From: Bacteroidia bacterium
GTDB lineage: Bacteria; Bacteroidota; Bacteroidia; J057
Length of the DNA stretch: 49,933 nt
Assembly (NCBI GenBank): GCA_019695295.1
Contig: JAIBAH010000020.1
Location: forward strand, 1-49,933
Reading direction: 5' to 3'
The notes beneath the pieces were generated by a model that had not been told where the DNA came from, made no database searches, and saw nothing but the letters and a program-made list of their open reading frames with translations. Shown here in pieces: positions 2,115 through 12,606 of the stretch (within the stretch, counting starts at the first letter, position 1; every line of letters starts with the position of its first letter). The position numbers and the translations under genes are program-made.

Positions 2115-3827
2115 ATGAAATCACTTTTTCTCTTCGTCCTGACCTGCTTTATGGTCCCCCTCGCTTGGGGTCAGATACCTGCCCCTACCTTCCGCTGGGC
2201 AGTACCGATTTCGGGGGCTTTGCAACTCTATGACATGGAGGTTACCCCTGCCGGAGATGTCTATGTATTTGGGTATTTTAAGGATTATATCTGTTTTGAT
2301 ACGGACTGGGACCATTGCCAGTATAGTCATGGAAAGGAAGATTATTTCTTGGCGAAGTATAATCAGAAGGGGGAGTTGGTGTGGGGGAAATGTATTGGGG
2401 GGAGACAACTTGATGGCGTACAGGAAAGTCGAATGAGTATGGATGAAAAAGAAAATCTATATCTGACACTCAATATCCAAGATTCCATTTGGATAAATAA
2501 TGTTCCCATTTCTGCCCGAAATGGCTCAAATGCAGTATGTAAAATAGACAAAAACGGGGGGATTATTTGGTTTGAACGTTGGCGGTATAACGAAGGGAAT
2601 GTCCAATTTGCCGTTCCTTTTCAAAATAAATTATACCTCTTAGGAGAACAATTAACAGATATGCCCCTATTTAATACCCTTATTCCTTATCAAGGAAGTG
2701 GTAATTTTCAAGAATATCTTTGTGTTATAGACCCAAATAAAGGAATAATAGATTTTACCGCATTTCAGGAAGCAGGCGGCGGCTCGAATGTTTTTGAGAG
2801 TTTCACCCATTTCCTCCCTCTCTCCAATGGCAATCTGTTAGTAGCAGGCAGGTTTGAAACTTCCCTTTCTGTACCTCCCTTGCTCTTCGAGGAGAATAAT
2901 TTCCCGGGAGGGGCTTCGTATATGCTGCTTTTAGACCCCAATTTGCAGCCAATTTGGGGAGAGGTGTATAATAGTAATAAAGTTGCACAAATCAGAGTGG
3001 ATGAGAGCCAAATCTATAGCTATATCAATTTAGTGGGCAACGATACAATAAAGGTATTCAAGGACACTTTATTTACTTTGACAAATGTCAATGAAAATAT
3101 CATATACAAAACGGATAGTAAGTTAAAAAGGAAAATGGCTAAAAGAAACACGAAATCCAGTAATAGCAGTTTATTTTTGGGAAGGAGATATTTCTTTACG
3201 AACACAAGTAAAGGGGCAGGAGAGATAGGAGACACTTTATTGTTTTATGACAATCCGATTATTGCTCAGGATTCTTTGTACTCTTATTATATGGTAAAAG
3301 CGGATACGAATATTCGATTAGCTTGGGCAAAACACACTTTTTCATTTACACCCAATCAATTACTTGACCGAAGTGTCGGCATTTATGGAGTAGATAGTAG
3401 CGGATATTTGTATGGACAGGGTCGAATGAATCAGTTTAGCATTTATTTAGACTCAATATTGGTCAAACCCCTATTCGTAACGATGGGAACGTATGGCGAG
3501 CAGTTTATTTGCAGCACCACAAGGGATAGTTTCCCGCCTGCCCCTGAGCCACCTCCGCCGCCGGTAGATACCTTGCCACCTTCAGGTACGGTCTATCCTA
3601 ATCCGTTTAACAGTGTTGTGAACTTGGTGGGCGATTTTGAGACAGGGAACATCGCTTTTGAGGTGATTGACACCAAAGGCAGCCTGGTATGGAATCAGTC
3701 ATTAGAGATACCCCAAGGTAGGCAATTATTCACTTTTGATTTATCCCGTTTGGCAGGTGGGATTTATTTTCTAAGAGTAAAACAAAACAACAAACAATCT
3801 TTCTATAAACTCATTAAAACTTCATGA
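2115..3827 (+). CDS. Secreted T9SS cargo protein, type A sorting domain
   Basis: A 570-residue protein with a signal peptide (MKSLFLFVLTCFMVPLAWG) and a repetitive, beta-rich body (LYDMEVTPAGDVYVFGYF, LYLLGEQ, GNLLVAGRF). Such bodies resemble SBBP/propeller-like secreted proteins of Bacteroidota. A proline-rich linker lies at about 475-492. Residues about 496-570 are a clear type A sorting domain: VYPNPFNS, then VIDTKGSLVW, then LAGGIYFLRV, then a basic end. Such domains direct export through the type IX system and anchoring or release at the surface. No enzymatic motif is seen. The next gene starts 1 bp after its stop, so the two are co-transcribed. Confidence 0.8.
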   Translation: MKSLFLFVLTCFMVPLAWGQIPAPTFRWAVPISGALQLYDMEVTPAGDVYVFGYFKDYICFDTDWDHCQYSHGKEDYFLAKYNQKGELVWGKCIGGRQLDGVQESRMSMDEKENLYLTLNIQDSIWINNVPISARNGSNAVCKIDKNGGIIWFERWRYNEGNVQFAVPFQNKLYLLGEQLTDMPLFNTLIPYQGSGNFQEYLCVIDPNKGIIDFTAFQEAGGGSNVFESFTHFLPLSNGNLLVAGRFETSLSVPPLLFEENNFPGGASYMLLLDPNLQPIWGEVYNSNKVAQIRVDESQIYSYINLVGNDTIKVFKDTLFTLTNVNENIIYKTDSKLKRKMAKRNTKSSNSSLFLGRRYFFTNTSKGAGEIGDTLLFYDNPIIAQDSLYSYYMVKADTNIRLAWAKHTFSFTPNQLLDRSVGIYGVDSSGYLYGQGRMNQFSIYLDSILVKPLFVTMGTYGEQFICSTTRDSFPPAPEPPPPPVDTLPPSGTVYPNPFNSVVNLVGDFETGNIAFEVIDTKGSLVWNQSLEIPQGRQLFTFDLSRLAGGIYFLRVKQNNKQSFYKLIKTS

Positions 3828-3828
3828 G

Positions 3829-4863
3829 ATGAACCGTTTTTATTTATTTGGGGTTGTAGTCCTGCTACTGCTGGGATTCCCCCTTTATGCGCAAAGTACT
3901 TGGCGGTGCGGGAATGACGGAAACCCTTCCCCACTTACGCCTACCACCACCGCCCGTTCCTACTTTGGGAAAGAGCATACCCCCAAAGGACATTTGCACA
4001 TGTTGGTGGTATATGTCCAGTTCGATGAAAACAGTTATGGGCAATACGTAAATACTTATCTCCCACCTGCAAATTGGGGGTATGACGCACAACAAGATTC
4101 TGCACATAAGCAAGAAATGTGGCAGTACAACGACCTCCCCACCATCGCCCAGCACTTCCCGGGCTACCCTGCGGGTCAGAATCGGATGTTTAATGCAGAC
4201 TTACCCATCGGCGGTGCAGGTCAGGTGCATAACCTGAGTGAGTACTACTATCAGCAGTCCAATGGGCAGTTTCAGGTAACGGCGGATATATTTCCAGTGC
4301 CGGTAACGTTGTCGTTTTCGGATATGGTGGCGTTGGCGCAGACACAGCCTTTTGATACGGCATTTGCGCCGGATGCCTTTGATTTTTATCATCATGTAAA
4401 TATAGCAGCATTGAATTGGATTAATACCCACCAAAACCTAATGCAGGGATTTGATTGGGCAAATTACGATAACCGAACCAATCACCCCGATTTTGAATCA
4501 GACAACTCCAATACCCCACCGGATGGCATTTTGGACTATGTGGTGTTTATGCACAGAAGATCAGCCCCTTTAGATGGAACGATTTTTCCGGGAAATCCGG
4601 AATTTATGAATGGACGTGCAGGAGGATTGGAGTATCCGATAGACGGAACGAACTGTAAAGCCGGTTTTTACGGACATCATACCGGTTCGGCAGGAAATAT
4701 ACCGGGTTGGAAATTTACGATTGATTGCTTTGAGAAAGAGTTTTTTCAAAATATTGATACGGAAACCTGCCGGAATACCCTTCACAACGCTCCGGTTTCT
4801 CCCTTTTGGAAAGCCCCTCAGTATTATGGTTTGCCAATTTTTTCTTTTCTCTCCGAAGAATAA
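3829..4863 (+). CDS. M6-peptidase-like secreted protein, probably inactive or truncated
   Basis: A 344-residue protein with a signal peptide (residues 1-21). Features resembling M6 (immune inhibitor A-like) peptidases are HMLVVYVQFDEN near residue 56, LSEYYYQQSNGQFQV near 137, and a D-rich segment ending DGILDYVVFMHR near 235. The M6 zinc motif HExxH is absent. Where it would be expected, residues 311-315 read T-E-T-C-R, which could be a decayed H-E-x-x-H. The protein stops about 30 residues later with an FWxAPxYYxLP tail instead of the rest of the catalytic domain, the third zinc ligand and a sorting domain. M6 assignment is by motif memory and is moderate. Loss of activity is inferred. Confidence 0.55.
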   Translation: MNRFYLFGVVVLLLLGFPLYAQSTWRCGNDGNPSPLTPTTTARSYFGKEHTPKGHLHMLVVYVQFDENSYGQYVNTYLPPANWGYDAQQDSAHKQEMWQYNDLPTIAQHFPGYPAGQNRMFNADLPIGGAGQVHNLSEYYYQQSNGQFQVTADIFPVPVTLSFSDMVALAQTQPFDTAFAPDAFDFYHHVNIAALNWINTHQNLMQGFDWANYDNRTNHPDFESDNSNTPPDGILDYVVFMHRRSAPLDGTIFPGNPEFMNGRAGGLEYPIDGTNCKAGFYGHHTGSAGNIPGWKFTIDCFEKEFFQNIDTETCRNTLHNAPVSPFWKAPQYYGLPIFSFLSEE

Positions 4864-4893
4864 TTTCTGTTTTGCACATCAAACTACTTTTTT

Positions 4894-5074
4894 ATGAAAT
4901 CACTATTTCTTTGCTTAATCCCCTGTCCTGAGCGTTAACTTTCAAATTCCCTATATTCCTGAATAGCAGAAACCATTGTTTGTTGTACTTCCGCCTTTGC
5001 CTTCGGGACTTTACTTTGTGAGGTTGCAGTCGGGCGAAACGGTGTATAGTGCTAAATTGTGGATAACAGAATGA
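4894..5074 (+). pseudogene. Collapsed T9SS cargo gene (start and sorting-domain end only)
   Basis: An ATG at 4894 encodes MKSLFLCLIPCPER then a stop. Its first residues and DNA match the start of the 2115 cargo gene (both begin ATGAAATCACT). Only about 50 bp further, 4988-5074 reads LPSGLYFVRLQSGE... and ends KLWITE-stop, which is the last third of a type A sorting domain. The body of the gene has been deleted. The rest of the 4864-5271 interval holds only the gdh promoter. Confidence 0.7.
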
Positions 5075-5219
5075 GGAGGAGAAATTAATCTTTTTCCGCA
5101 AAAGTAAAAAGGTATAGTCCCGCTGAATTGTGGGTTTGGGTTATTTTATCTTTGGGCTTATATAGAGAAAATTTCAGAAAAAATTTTGAAAAAATAGATT
5201 ATCGGGTATAAACCTTACG

Positions 5220-5264
5220 GCTTTTCTCTATCTTTGCGGCAGTTTTCATTTTCACCAAAAAACG
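5220..5264 (+). promoter_or_regulatory. gdh promoter
   Basis: TATCTTTG at 5229-5236 fits the TAnnTTTG -7 consensus, with the ATG 36 bp beyond. No good -33 TTG is seen at the expected distance. The block is duplicated at 1868-1913. Confidence 0.55.
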
Positions 5265-5271
5265 CCATACA

Positions 5272-6501
5272 ATGATTAGTAAATTAAAAGAATTTGAATC
5301 CCGACAACCGGAAATAGTATTTCACTGGACAGACAGAGAAACCGAAGCAGAAGGATGGGTAGTAATCAATTCTCTCAAAAACGGAGCTGCCGGAGGCGGA
5401 ACCCGTATGCGTAAGGGATGTTCAATGCACGAAGTATTGTCCCTTGCCAAAACCATGGAAATAAAGTTTTGTGTAGCCGGCCCTTCTATCGGAGGAGCAA
5501 AGTCAGGAATAAATTTTGACCCGAATGACCCCCGCAAAGAGGGAGTCCTTCAGCGTTGGTACAAAGCCGTTTATCCTTTGCTGAAAAATTATTACGGAAC
5601 CGGAGGAGACCTTAATGTGGATGAAATCAAGGAAGTGATTCCGATTACCTCTGCATTGGGGATATTTCACCCTCAGGAAGGAGTGGTTAACGGTCATCTG
5701 AGGCCTACCGAAGAAGGCAGAAAACAAATCATCCGTCAGTTACAGGACGGGGTATCTCAAAGGGTGACCGATATCCGATATACCCCGGATGTGAATGAAC
5801 ATATTACGCTTGCGGATATGATTACCGGATACGGAGTAGCAGAAGCGGTAAGACATTATTACAATATCTGGGGAAAAGCCTATCAGGGTAAAAGAGCGAT
5901 TATCCAGGGTTTTGGAAACGTGGGAGGTGCTGCTGCGTGGGTACTTACCCAAATGGGAATCAAAGTAGTAGGAATTATTGACAGAAGCGGTGGATTATTT
6001 AATAAAGAGGGATTCTCACTGGAAGAAATCACGCATCTGTTTCTTACCAGAGACGGCAATAAACTCAGTTCCCCCAACCTGATTGCATACGATCAGGCGA
6101 ATCTGGATATTTGGGGAATGGGAGCAGAAGTGTTTATTCCGGCTGCGGGTTCAAGGATGGTTACTCAGTATCAGCTGGATCAAATGGTTGAAGGCGGACT
6201 CGAAGTGGTTTCCTGTGGTGCAAATGTGCCTTTTAATGACCCGGATATTTTCCTTGGAGAGACAGGAGTCGATGCCGATAACAGAGTAGCAGTAATTCCG
6301 GATTTTATCGCCAATTGTGGTATGGCAAGAGCATTCGCTTATTTTATGCAGCCGGATACTTCCATGAAGGATGAAGATATATTTACGGATACATCTGAAA
6401 CGATTCGCAAGGCACTTCAAAAGACGTATGATTTTGCACCGGACTCTTCCGTTCAGTTGTGCCAGAATTCTTTTGAGTGGGTACTGGATGCGATAAAGTA
6501 A
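5272..6501 (+). CDS. Glu/Leu/Phe/Val dehydrogenase family protein
   Basis: A 409-residue cytosolic enzyme of the amino-acid dehydrogenase superfamily, which interconverts an L-amino acid and its 2-oxo acid with NAD(P). The substrate-side domain has GGGTRMRKG (near residue 42), a candidate lysine in K-x-C..AGPSIGGAKSGI (around 60-80) and GTGGDLNVDE (near 107). The Rossmann domain carries GFGNVGG at about 206-212. The GGTRM and GGAKSG motifs resemble leucine/valine as much as glutamate dehydrogenases, so substrate cannot be fixed. Monocistronic, with its own promoter and a downstream hairpin. Confidence 0.85.
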   Translation: MISKLKEFESRQPEIVFHWTDRETEAEGWVVINSLKNGAAGGGTRMRKGCSMHEVLSLAKTMEIKFCVAGPSIGGAKSGINFDPNDPRKEGVLQRWYKAVYPLLKNYYGTGGDLNVDEIKEVIPITSALGIFHPQEGVVNGHLRPTEEGRKQIIRQLQDGVSQRVTDIRYTPDVNEHITLADMITGYGVAEAVRHYYNIWGKAYQGKRAIIQGFGNVGGAAAWVLTQMGIKVVGIIDRSGGLFNKEGFSLEEITHLFLTRDGNKLSSPNLIAYDQANLDIWGMGAEVFIPAAGSRMVTQYQLDQMVEGGLEVVSCGANVPFNDPDIFLGETGVDADNRVAVIPDFIANCGMARAFAYFMQPDTSMKDEDIFTDTSETIRKALQKTYDFAPDSSVQLCQNSFEWVLDAIK

Positions 6502-7317: not shown

Positions 7318-7334
7318 AACAGGAAAAAAAATGA

Positions 7335-7374
7335 GGATGATATTGTGCAACATCATCCCCGGGATTCACTTTTT
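7335..7374. terminator. Terminator between convergent genes
   Basis: GGATGAT at 7335-7341 pairs with ATCATCC at 7352-7358. A T7 tract (7371-7377) lies shortly after on the plus strand and an A8 tract on the other side (7323-7330). It could serve both the MBL gene and the paa operon. Confidence 0.6.
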
Positions 7375-7384
7375 TTACGAGAAA

Positions 7385-7870
7385 TTATCTGAGACACTTA
7401 AAATAATCGAATGGCTCGAGGCAGTCAAGGCACTTGAACAAGGCTTTACACGCCGTTGAGCCAAAAGGTGTCAGCATTTGAGTATGATTAGATTTACAAT
7501 TTGGACAAATTACCTGACGGGTTTCCCCCATAAGTGCTTTTTTGTCAGCAGTAGGACTAAGCGGAGGCGCAATCCCGTATTCCATTAGTTTCTTCTTCCC
7601 TTCTTCCGTCATCCAGTCTGTAGTCCAGGCAGGAGAAAGCACTGATTTTATCGTTACATTAGGGATACCGCGGGAGTGTAAGGCTTCCTGAATGTTTTTT
7701 TCGATTTCATTCATTGCCGGACAGCCCGAATAGGTCGGGGTGATAGAAATAAAAACGGACTCGTTCCGGATTTCTACTGCTCTTACAATTCCCATATCCA
7801 GGATGGAAAGTACAGGAATCTCCGGGTCAGTAACTTGCTGAAGGATGTTGAGTATCTGTAACTGTGTCAT
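7385..7870 (-). CDS. paaD: Phenylacetyl-CoA epoxidase maturation protein PaaD
   Basis: A 161-residue protein. Residues 1-100 form the MIP18/DUF59-type domain (TDPEIPVLSILDMGIVR, then TPTYSGCPA with the conserved cysteine near 54). Residues about 118-160 carry a zinc-ribbon-like pair, C-P-N-C and C-L-D-C, typical of full-length PaaD. PaaD helps assemble the iron-sulphur cluster needed by the PaaABCE epoxidase. Its start overlaps the globin stop by 4 bp (translational coupling). No paaE reductase gene is in the window. Confidence 0.9.
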   Translation of the reverse strand: MTQLQILNILQQVTDPEIPVLSILDMGIVRAVEIRNESVFISITPTYSGCPAMNEIEKNIQEALHSRGIPNVTIKSVLSPAWTTDWMTEEGKKKLMEYGIAPPLSPTADKKALMGETRQVICPNCKSNHTQMLTPFGSTACKALFKCLDCLEPFDYFKCLR

Positions 7871-8259
7871 GTCATTATAGGAAATTTGCGCTGATGAATT
7901 TTAACCTGAATCAGAGTAGCAATTGATATCGCAGATTGCTTTGCTTTTTCTGCTCTTTCTCCTTCAAACATTTCCTCTACAGTAGCATGAAAAATAGAAA
8001 GCCACCGTTCAAAATGTTCTGGTTTCAGGGCTTCTTTTTCGTTCAGCTGTATATGAGCGTGCATCGGATTGCCTCTGTAAACCGGATTCTGAAACAAAAT
8101 GCCTTCCCAGAAATCGGTGATTTTGGGAAAGTGGGTTTCGGGATTTACTTTGGCTACCTCAGTAAAGAAGTATCCAATCTCAGAATCGGCAAAAACTTTT
8201 TCATAAAATATTTTTACCAAAAGTTCTATATCTTCTCTTGATTCTATTGTTTTTTTCAT
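7867..8259 (-). CDS. Group III truncated haemoglobin
   Basis: A 130-residue globin-like protein. The family pattern is visible: YFF near 31, FWEGILF near 51, and a candidate proximal histidine in LKPEHFERWL near 83. It sits between paaC and paaD, with 33 bp to paaC and a 4-bp overlap with paaD, so it is part of the operon. PaaABCE uses O2, so O2 supply, O2 buffering or NO protection is a reasonable inference, but nothing in the sequence proves it. Confidence 0.85.
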   Translation of the reverse strand: MKKTIESREDIELLVKIFYEKVFADSEIGYFFTEVAKVNPETHFPKITDFWEGILFQNPVYRGNPMHAHIQLNEKEALKPEHFERWLSIFHATVEEMFEGERAEKAKQSAISIATLIQVKIHQRKFPIMT

Positions 8260-8292: not shown

Positions 8293-9045
8293 CTACCATT
8301 TTTGTCCCGGATACGCTCTTTGCATAAATTGCATTTCCGCAAGAATATATCCAAGGTGTTCGGTATGCCTTCCGGTTTTTCCACCGTACTGCATTCCCGC
8401 TACTTTGGGGTGCACAAGGGTAGCTTCTGCGAGAATATCCGATACTTTTTCATCCCAAAGTGGCTTTAATATGCTCAAATCCACAGCAATGCCTTCAGCA
8501 GCAAGTGCTTTTTCACGGTCGGTCATTTGAAAAAGTTCATCGGAGTATCTCCATACTTCATTTAGCCCTTCCTGCATTCTCCTTTTGCTTTCCTCCGTAC
8601 CATCTCCGAGACGCACCACCCATTCAGAACTCCAGCGGAGGTGATAGGTTGTTTCCTTAAGGGATTTCTCCGCAATTGCAGAGAGCATTTCGTCTTTACT
8701 TTTTTGCAATTCTGTGTAAAAAAGGTAAGCATATACATCATAAAGAAACTGCCGGGCTACCGTTTTTCCGAAATCACCGTTTGTTTGCTCTACCAATAAT
8801 ACATTATAGTAGTCCCAGCCGTCCCTGAGGTAGGCCATATCATCTTCCGTCCTGTCTTTTCCCTCGAGTTGAGCGGCATACTGATATAAACTCCTTGCCT
8901 GTCCGATTAAGTCCAGAGAAAGATTGGTCATTGCGATATCCTGCTCTAATACAGGACCATGTCCGCACCATTCCCCGAGGCGGTGACTCAGAATGTTTGC
9001 ATTGTCTGCAAGCTGAAGGGTATATTCAAATAAATGCTGTTTCAT
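8293..9045 (-). CDS. paaC: Phenylacetyl-CoA epoxidase structural subunit PaaC
   Basis: A 250-residue ferritin-like helical protein. LADNANILSHRLGEWCGHGPVLEQDIAM near the start and the segments LIGQARSLYQYAA and HLRWSSEWVVRLGDGTEES match PaaC, the non-catalytic partner of PaaA in 1,2-epoxidation of phenylacetyl-CoA. Length is normal. It starts 14 bp after paaB. Confidence 0.93.
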   Translation of the reverse strand: MKQHLFEYTLQLADNANILSHRLGEWCGHGPVLEQDIAMTNLSLDLIGQARSLYQYAAQLEGKDRTEDDMAYLRDGWDYYNVLLVEQTNGDFGKTVARQFLYDVYAYLFYTELQKSKDEMLSAIAEKSLKETTYHLRWSSEWVVRLGDGTEESKRRMQEGLNEVWRYSDELFQMTDREKALAAEGIAVDLSILKPLWDEKVSDILAEATLVHPKVAGMQYGGKTGRHTEHLGYILAEMQFMQRAYPGQKW

Positions 9046-9059
9046 GGATTATTAATAAA

Positions 9060-9347
9060 TTACATATGTTTTACTTCGTCAGGCAAGTCATAGAAAGTAG
9101 GGTGACGGTAAACCTTGTCATTTGCAGGCTCAAACAGCGACCCGGCATCATCCGGACTGGAAGCATGTACGTGTACGGATTCTACCACCCAAATACTCAC
9201 GCCCTCCATCCGGCGGGTATATACATCTCTTGCACATTCTATTGCCATCTGAGCATCCGCAGCATGCAGGCTTCCCGCATGCTTATGGTCCAAACCTTGT
9301 TTACTTCTGATAAATACCTCCCATAGAGGCCAGTCTTTCGGATTCAT
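9060..9347 (-). CDS. paaB: Phenylacetyl-CoA epoxidase subunit PaaB
   Basis: A 95-residue protein. WPLWEVFIRSKQGLDHKHAGSLHA and the ARDVYTRRMEGVSIWVV segment are diagnostic of PaaB, the small bridging subunit of the epoxidase. It lies immediately upstream of paaC, in the normal B-C order, but is separated from paaA by three unrelated genes. Confidence 0.93.
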   Translation of the reverse strand: MNPKDWPLWEVFIRSKQGLDHKHAGSLHAADAQMAIECARDVYTRRMEGVSIWVVESVHVHASSPDDAGSLFEPANDKVYRHPTFYDLPDEVKHM

Positions 9348-9371: not shown

Positions 9372-9836
9372 TTAATAAAAACTGATAAAATCACAATCAA
9401 AAATCAAAGTAGAATTCGCTGGAATCGTTGCTACTGTCTGTGAGCCGTATCCCATAGAAGGGGGAATCACGAGTACAAAACGGGAGCCGGGTTTCATTTT
9501 TTGAAAAGCAACCTGCCACCCTTTGATTACCGCACTTAACGGAAATTCAGTTGCCTGTCCTCTTTCAAACGAACTGTCAAATACATGTCCGTTTTTTAAC
9601 CTGCCATGATAATTTGCCAGAACTTTACTCGACAGGGTGGGGTAATTGCCTTCCCCTTCTTTGATGACATATACTTTCACCCCTCCCTCAAGATTCAGTA
9701 CTTTTGAGGAGTCTTTTACGGCAAAAGGCGGCTTACCGCTGTCATCTGTCTTCGTTTTACTCGTTGCTTTTTGTGTTTTGCAGGAGAAGACGGTGAATAG
9801 ACTGATGAGAACAAGAATAATAATTTTAAATTTCAT
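9372..9836 (-). CDS. FKBP-type peptidyl-prolyl isomerase lipoprotein
   Basis: A 154-residue protein. An N-terminal lipobox (LFTVFSC, Cys about 19) makes it a periplasmic-facing lipoprotein. The FKBP domain spans about 55-154, with VFDSSFERG, VIKGWQVAFQKMKPG, IPPSMGYG and IPANSTLIFDCD. Such enzymes assist folding of exported proteins. It starts directly after the HNH gene stop, with no intergenic base. Its link with phenylacetate breakdown is not obvious. Confidence 0.88.
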   Translation of the reverse strand: MKFKIIILVLISLFTVFSCKTQKATSKTKTDDSGKPPFAVKDSSKVLNLEGGVKVYVIKEGEGNYPTLSSKVLANYHGRLKNGHVFDSSFERGQATEFPLSAVIKGWQVAFQKMKPGSRFVLVIPPSMGYGSQTVATIPANSTLIFDCDFISFY

Positions 9837-10412
9837 TTATGAATTATGGTTAAAGTAAAAACGAATGAGTGAGAAGAATTCTCCCAGATTTTCTTTTATT
9901 TTTTCTTCTGAAAAGCCAGAATAATTACTAATATCTAAAATAGTTTGCATTCTTCGTTCTTTTAAACTTGAATGATTTAAGTTGAAGACTTCAATCGTTC
10001 TTTTTGCTTTTTCTGTTTTCCCGAAAATTTCTCCGTTTGCAAAACTGAATGAAAACGCATCTTTTGTCTCTTCTGATAATGGAGAAAGAATTTTATCGTA
10101 GAATTCTTTTTTTATTTTTTTGTCCTTGTTTTTTGCTCCCCATTTCTCATCATTATGCGCCACAAATAAATTGTCATAAGAAAAAGTAAGATTAGCAAAA
10201 TGATTCCGCATTTTAAAATGGTCAATGTGTGAATTATCCTCTCTTAAAAGAACTTCCGTATAAGCACATTGAGAGGCTTGCTCTTCTTTAAGGATATATT
10301 CTCTTAATTCTATTCTGATTTCACGACTCAATTCACTCCAATGTTGAGGCTTATTCTTTCGGATAAAGTTGGAATAAAACGGAGGAATTGTTTTTTTCTC
10401 AATGTATTTCAT
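9837..10412 (-). CDS. HNH-family nuclease, PtuB/TIGR02646-like
   Basis: A 191-residue protein. The HNH-type core is visible as CAYTE (C49), then H-I-D-H-F (H62, D64, H65), then Y-D-N-L (N81). This matches the TIGR02646/PtuB pattern, although the usual second cysteine (CxYC) is Thr here, so zinc binding on that side may be lost. It overlaps the upstream ATPase by 4 bp and ends flush with the FKBP gene. In Septu systems PtuB is the nuclease partner of an ATPase. That role is inferred from the pairing. Confidence 0.7.
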   Translation of the reverse strand: MKYIEKKTIPPFYSNFIRKNKPQHWSELSREIRIELREYILKEEQASQCAYTEVLLREDNSHIDHFKMRNHFANLTFSYDNLFVAHNDEKWGAKNKDKKIKKEFYDKILSPLSEETKDAFSFSFANGEIFGKTEKAKRTIEVFNLNHSSLKERRMQTILDISNYSGFSEEKIKENLGEFFSLIRFYFNHNS

Positions 10413-11515
10413 TGCTTCAATGCCTCTTTTTTAAGTCTTAATATCTCTAACCGAATCAATTTTAAATGATTGTCTTCGTATCCAATCAAATCTTCCAAGT
10501 CTTTGAGCTTATTCTTAAATGCTTCAGATTCGAATTCATTTTCTCTAAGTAGTGCATATAACTCCTCGAATAAAGCTTCAACCTCAGGCGTTCTAAGGTA
10601 TTTTACCCCAAGAATCTCCAAAAGAATCCGTTCCGTTCGCCATCCAAAAGACCCGTCAAGGGGCTTTATTGCCCGGATTATCCCTTCTTCCCTAACCAAA
10701 ATCCGGATATTTTCTTTACGAACAGAGCCAACGATAAAAGGAGAATGCGTTGCAAGAATGATTTGGTTATTGTTTTCTCTTGCGAAACGCTCATACACTT
10801 TGATTATTTGGTTTTGCCAGTTGGGGTGCAGGGAGAGTTCAGGTTCGTCAATCAATAGTACGCTATTTTTTATGTCTAAGAAATAAAGAGAAAAAGCATA
10901 ACTAATCAATCTTTTTTCCCCGCTTGATAATTCTTCTATAAAAATTCTTTTTTTTATCTCTTTGCCATCACTTCTTAAAAAAGGGAATTTATTTTGAAAA
11001 TAAATCTTACGCTCTTGTGTAACGCCGCCAAACTCTATTTCCAACCCCAACGTTTCAAATAGTTGATTACTTAAACGTTCAATATTTTCATAGGCTATAC
11101 GACTTGTTTTATTTTCCTCATAGATGATTTTATCAACATACTTAAGCAATGATTTTTCAACTTCTTGAATCCATTGATTGCTGATTTCATGTGTTAAAAA
11201 GGAAATCTTATCTCCCCACCAAAATTGAGCAAACTTACCGTCTTCAGTTCTTTTGAAGAATTGACCGGATTGATCCGAAGTAACTTCCTGTCCGTCATCG
11301 GTTTGAACTATGATGTAATCATTAAAAGAAGTATTGCCCAAAGCATAATCTTTTATGCATTGCAATAAAGTAGTTTTTCCGCTTCCATTTGCTCCCGTGA
11401 TTACGACCAAATCCAATGGTACTCCGTGTTTATCACAGAAATCAATGTCAAACTTAAAAAAAGCTTTTTCTTCTTCTATATGTACCGATTTAATCTTCAT
11501 CTTTAATTTATGCAC
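10409..11515 (-). CDS. ABC/SMC-like ATPase, PtuA-like (Septu-like pair)
   Basis: A 368-residue AAA_15/AAA_21-type ATPase. Walker A is GANGSGKT at residues 41-48, an ABC-type signature is LSSGEKRL near 200, Walker B is VLLIDEPELSLHP near 220, and the switch histidine is in ILATHSPFIV near 254. No transmembrane segment. A start at Met6 is also possible. Together with the overlapping HNH gene it forms the two-gene layout of Septu (ptuA-ptuB), although PtuA proteins are often longer. OLD/RecF-like ATPases of other defence systems are alternatives. It starts 14 bp after the paaA stop. Confidence 0.75.
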   Translation of the reverse strand: MHKLKMKIKSVHIEEEKAFFKFDIDFCDKHGVPLDLVVITGANGSGKTTLLQCIKDYALGNTSFNDYIIVQTDDGQEVTSDQSGQFFKRTEDGKFAQFWWGDKISFLTHEISNQWIQEVEKSLLKYVDKIIYEENKTSRIAYENIERLSNQLFETLGLEIEFGGVTQERKIYFQNKFPFLRSDGKEIKKRIFIEELSSGEKRLISYAFSLYFLDIKNSVLLIDEPELSLHPNWQNQIIKVYERFARENNNQIILATHSPFIVGSVRKENIRILVREEGIIRAIKPLDGSFGWRTERILLEILGVKYLRTPEVEALFEELYALLRENEFESEAFKNKLKDLEDLIGYEDNHLKLIRLEILRLKKEALKQ

Positions 11516-12572: not shown

Positions 12573-12606
12573 AAACTAACGACCGTTAGTTTTGTTTACA
12601 AAGGTA
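12573..12606 (-). promoter_or_regulatory. paaA promoter with PaaR-like palindromic operator
   Basis: On the minus strand TACCTTTG (12606-12599) fits the -7 consensus. Six bases downstream, 12573-12592 is a perfect palindrome AAACTAACG-AC-CGTTAGTTT. Its core CTAACGACCGTTAG fits the CNAACGNNCGTTNG site I recall for PaaR, the TetR-family phenylacetyl-CoA-responsive repressor of Thermus. The position over the transcription start suits repression. No TetR gene lies in the window and no clear -33 element is seen. Confidence 0.75.

Follow-up and report, generated by a model that had tools for sequence, protein, structure and literature searches.

Does a defence-like gene pair inside a phenylacetate (paa) operon reflect an evolved link between catabolism and immunity, or an insertion that the operon tolerates? 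The question arises from a stretch of 49,933 nucleotides from a Bacteroidia bacterium (referred to here, at its full length, as the window), in which a ptuA-like and a ptuB-like gene lie between paaA and paaB. We consider it likely that ptuAB is a Septu type I anti-phage pair that was gained by this lineage, inserted between paaA and a gene for an FKBP-type prolyl isomerase, and is carried there as a tolerated passenger. As a defence system the pair appears ordinary; the novelty is its unusual location, not a new kind of system. It provides a clean before-and-after case of Septu gain within a metabolic operon, with an empty site in a genome of the same genus. In the part of the literature covered by a search of titles and abstracts, no paper describing such a pair within a paa operon came up.

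Layout of the operon and identity of the pair

All genes of the paa unit, including the inserted pair, are on the minus strand (Table 1). The ORF coordinates confirm a same-orientation ATPase/HNH pair (368 and 191 aa, respectively) with a 4-bp overlap, as originally predicted. Two starts are available for ptuA, a GTG at 11515 and an ATG at 11500 (14 and 29 bp past paaA), and the ATG is probably the one used. The predicted spacing of 14 bp after paaA holds, but the gene that follows at 0 bp is FKBP and not paaB: the FKBP start directly abuts the ptuB stop, and paaB is a further 24 bp beyond FKBP. A truncated-globin gene between paaC and paaD was absent from the original prediction.

Table 1. 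Features of the paa unit and its control region, in positions of the window
Feature	Position	Strand	Basis or remark
TACCTTTG, -7 promoter element of the Bacteroidota type, ahead of paaA	12599..12606	-	pattern scan
CTAACGACCGTTAG (CTAACGGTCGTTAG), operator of the PaaR type, shortly downstream of the -7 element	12576..12589	.	exact match to CNAACG..CGTTNG
paaA	11530..12486	-	TIGR02156, E 1.5e-165
ptuA-like ABC-type ATPase	10409..11515	-	PDLC00289, E 5.2e-79; likely start ATG at 11500
ptuB-like HNH nuclease	9837..10412	-	PDLC00326, E 4.9e-50; TIGR02646
FKBP-type prolyl isomerase, putative lipoprotein	9372..9836	-	PF00254, E 2.9e-23
paaB	9060..9347	-	TIGR02157, E 9.1e-43
paaC	8293..9045	-	TIGR02158, E 3.4e-89
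bacterial-like (truncated) globin	7867..8259	-	PF01152, 22.9 bits (cut-off 21)
paaD	7385..7870	-	TIGR02159, E 6.3e-58
intrinsic-terminator-like hairpin ending the unit	7333..7360	-	terminator scan; 12-bp stem and T run

On sequence profiles, matches to solved structures, and predicted folds, the pair is assigned to the PtuA-PtuB proteins of Septu and retron I-A. Both proteins match PADLOC defence families (the PtuA and PtuB profiles listed in Table 1), in agreement with the call first made for them. For the ptuA product, the best sequence match among solved structures is the PtuA of PDB 8ee4 (E 7e-14), and its moderately confident model (mean pLDDT 73.6) has the E. coli Septu structure 8eea as its top Foldseek match. 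Across the 13-14 homologues aligned, its residues N38, G39, G41, K42, L191-S192-G194, D218-E219, and H252 are invariant, so that this PtuA-family AAA/ABC-type ATPase has a Walker A motif (K42), a signature (L191-S192-G194), a Walker B motif (D218-E219), and an H motif (H252). The ptuB product also passes TIGR02646 (71.5 bits against a cut-off of 52.15) and has the PtuB of 9n69 as its best solved-structure sequence match. Its model (pLDDT 89.9) has PtuB as each of its 11 best PDB matches, with the retron structures 9n6b, 9n69, and 9u9y heading the list, and PtuB chains are the sole ones matched at E <= 0.001. The conserved His and Asn of this PtuB-family HNH nuclease, H65 and N81, are likewise invariant (13-14 homologues aligned). 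Where many homologues have zinc-finger-like cysteine pairs, it carries CxYT and GAxxKD, an arrangement that it shares with L081 and L082, the two relatives nearest to it.

The adjacent, co-directional ptuA-ptuB order without a reverse transcriptase, among paa and FKBP neighbours, is that of Septu type I. The pair shares its two-gene order of ABC-type ATPase and HNH protein with E. coli Septu type I (8eea/8ee4; Septu EcB88, PMC13096335). Defence by EcB88 is reported to need the Lys of Walker A and the Asp of Walker B in PtuA, as well as the His and Asn of PtuB (PMC13096335), and the equivalents of these defence-essential residues (Walker A/B; H-N-H) are conserved here. In contrast, structural alignments give a low overall identity (15-20%), the PtuA of 8ee4 has 465 aa whereas that of the window has 363-368 aa, the CxYT...GAxxKD arrangement replaces the usual cysteine pairs, and the pair is placed in a catabolic operon. 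The PtuAB effector of retron-Eco7 (Ec78)/Ec83 has the PtuB fold and HNH motif in common with the window protein, but the window operon has no adjacent reverse transcriptase gene. The NCBIfam equivalogs for Ec78-specific PtuA and PtuB (NF041760 and NF041761) stay well below their cut-offs (107.6/500 and 93.8/150 bits), and function is therefore assigned by family analogy.

By that analogy, we infer both the defence activity and the target of ptuAB. PtuA would act as an ATP-binding scaffold and sensor, as in characterised PtuAB, and PtuB as a nuclease that attacks nucleic acid upon infection. The target in studied systems is tRNA-Tyr for retron-Eco7 PtuAB (PMC11555353) and for Septu EcB88 (PMC13096335); an earlier-studied Septu is cited in PMC11555353 as targeting DNA.

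Probable gain of ptuAB in this lineage

The search covered 60 relatives. In the two other genomes of the genus the pair is absent from the paa operon, and it is thus not a conserved component of it. In G002 the order is paaA-FKBP-paaB-paaC-globin-paaD (87, 64, 94, 78, 62, and 77% identity to the window, respectively), with 21 bp separating paaA from FKBP, and a PtuA/PtuB search of this genome, which is 86% complete, gave no match. G001 lacks both FKBP and ptuAB at this position and has the order paaA-paaB-paaC-globin-paaD. All three genomes of the genus thus have the globin in their paa operons, and two of them have FKBP; FKBP is an operon member that preceded the insertion. Given the G002 operon without ptuAB, the most likely event is insertion of the pair at the boundary of paaA and FKBP, a direction drawn from comparison with two relatives. 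That both of these lost the pair is less likely, although the incompleteness of G002 and the small number of genomes for the genus (two others) leave some room for it.

Base composition suggests that the arrival was recent. The GC contents of ptuA and ptuB are 0.349 and 0.302, the two lowest among the ORFs compared, against 0.427 +/- 0.026 for the 29 other window ORFs of at least 150 aa. The module is therefore as AT-rich as had been noted, and composition and the empty G002 site together support the original reading of the pair as transferred. PtuB relatives are sparse, with matches at E <= 1e-5 in 17 of 395 genomes of the phylum (the window's own included) and a nearest other PtuB at 43% identity. 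Further searches gave no PtuB match in phage records, a best match of 31% identity to PtuA by tblastn against plasmids, and one weak PtuA locus (28% identity) in a scan of genome contigs. At the junctions of the insert, a candidate target-site duplication came down to an 8-bp AT-rich match (TTCATAAA), which we judged unremarkable.

Nine matches to the PtuB profile occur in G001 (L058, L108, L110, L113, and L116-L120), several of them behind same-strand genes. One of these, the ptuAB before tgt in L116, was considered as a second clean insertion at a housekeeping gene and rejected for lack of a clean empty site: in G000 and G002 tgt is preceded by another gene, and the ptuAB of L116 follows a gene that is not conserved.

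Expected control from the paaA promoter

The control region upstream of paaA contains a match to TANNTTTG, which we take to be the Bacteroidota -7 element. On the minus strand, a scan that began ahead of paaA and ran to paaD gave this match as the sole one apart from those inside ptuA (11449-11456 and 11230-11237), and in G002 the same element stands at an equal distance from the operator. The minus-strand TANNTTTG scan from the paaA promoter to paaD thus reveals no obvious promoter ahead of ptuA, although the motifs within ptuA could serve as ptuB promoters. The terminator scan found no minus-strand terminator-like site between paaA and paaD; one hairpin is just past paaD (Table 1), and the only other on the minus strand of the scanned stretch (12737-12697) is upstream of the promoter. 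Because neither a terminator nor a separate promoter is seen, co-transcription with the operon is likely, and the pair, for which no separate promoter is visible, probably shares the operon's switch.

That switch is predicted to be of the PaaR type. The PaaR-like operator of the original prediction is present at the promoter from which ptuAB should be read. The exact pattern has one further copy in the genome, on contig C157 ahead of a tetR-paaE pair, whose PaaE matches TIGR02160 (E 1.4e-149). A reversed control pattern occurs five times per strand and is thus commoner than the PaaR-type pattern, so the operator count alone means little. It is the location of both exact sites at paa promoters that is the evidence for putative PaaR-type control, and the site before tetR-paaE makes shared control a sound prediction. 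The half-sites (CNAACG and CGTTNG) match those reported for Thermus thermophilus TTHA0973/PaaR, which regulates paa operons (PMC6651687), and the window genome, like that system, has a TetR gene beside paaE. Unlike the Thermus operons, that of the window carries ptuAB, FKBP, and globin genes, and its repression by TetR is putative. If ptuAB is read from the operator-bearing paaA promoter, its level should follow that of the paa operon. The empty site in a relative and the predictable inducer open both expression and phage protection to tests with phenylacetate as the variable.

Passenger insertion or selected coupling

We measured the gap between paaA and paaB in 76 loci with both genes on one stretch, after removal of loci fetched twice. 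The genes are adjacent in 68, and the gap is at least 350 bp in the other eight: the window (ptuAB and FKBP), G002 (FKBP), and six more, of which three, in as many genomes, have a 23S_rRNA_IVP protein (PF05635; L197:1244-1741, L200:4440-4951, and L232:4418-5006), two have ORFs without a Pfam match, and one has no ORF above the size limit. This suggests that the junction tolerates unrelated inserted genes. We considered and rejected the idea that Septu pairs are unusually often placed close behind a gene on the same strand: 27 of 61 Septu-like pairs lie within 100 bp of the upstream gene, compared to 126 of 270 controls, and a same-strand upstream neighbour at any distance is found for 52 of 61 and 196 of 270, respectively. 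The placement is best read as a tolerated passenger insertion and not as an evolved link between catabolism and immunity, since ptuAB occurs in one of the 76 loci (the window), other passengers use the same junction, and tight neighbours are not in excess. Of the two explanations originally offered, a cassette that landed where readthrough does no harm therefore fits best. The embedding in the operon is supported by its layout and by the promoter and terminator scans, and inducibility by phenylacetyl-CoA is likely to be a side effect of it, but selection for inducibility is unsupported.

Such selection would mean that PaaR keeps ptuAB low, that phenylacetyl-CoA releases it, and that the coupling was retained because immunity rising during use of phenylacetate or related aromatics is helpful. 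The phage resistance of this bacterium would then depend on its carbon source. The operator, with its match to the PaaR consensus and its two exact occurrences at paa promoters, and the lack of anything obvious between ptuAB and the paaA promoter would fit this idea, yet we regard it as improbable, given the single occurrence among paa loci, the unrelated genes at the same junction, the absence of the pair from the site in both other genomes of the genus, and a composition that suggests recent arrival. Still less probable, at a small fraction of the weight we give to passenger insertion, is a retron I-A effector module working with a reverse transcriptase and msDNA. The nearest solved structures do include PtuA and PtuB of retrons Ec78/Ec83, and the genome has one RT-domain gene; that gene, however, is on another contig (C61) beside unrelated genes and not next to ptuAB in the operon, and the retron-specific equivalogs are far below cut-off.

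A non-defence role in the operon, e.g., nucleic-acid quality control during growth on phenylacetate, would agree with the tight packing of the pair among operon genes, but relatives' operons lack it and the profiles and folds are specifically those of Septu and retron I-A, so that we find this role very hard to credit. The least probable explanation is an artefact of assembly or binning in which a foreign fragment was joined to the paa contig. The draft genome does consist of 223 contigs; however, both flanks follow the G002 operon order, a stop codon precedes the insert, a start codon follows it directly, and all frames are intact.

Several other loci came to light during these searches. The single RT-domain gene of the genome (L240:1276-2292, 338 aa) has as neighbours an ORF of 151 aa and another that is leucine-rich-repeat-like. 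In L087 (178-11331), L127, L130, L132, L136, and L137, which come from several genomes, ptuAB directly precedes a DUF1156-type gene with a 4-bp overlap, a recurring larger defence-like operon; L087, the one locus in which PF06634 and helicase domains were checked, has a helicase gene upstream of ptuAB. In another genome of the phylum (G070, L138:1837-7127), a PtuAB-like pair (2812-5303) is between a cmr1-like gene, called by eye, and a Cas10/Cmr2 gene (PF22335 and PF12469). It is 15 and 3 bp from these neighbours, which places this Septu-like pair within an operon of type III CRISPR genes.
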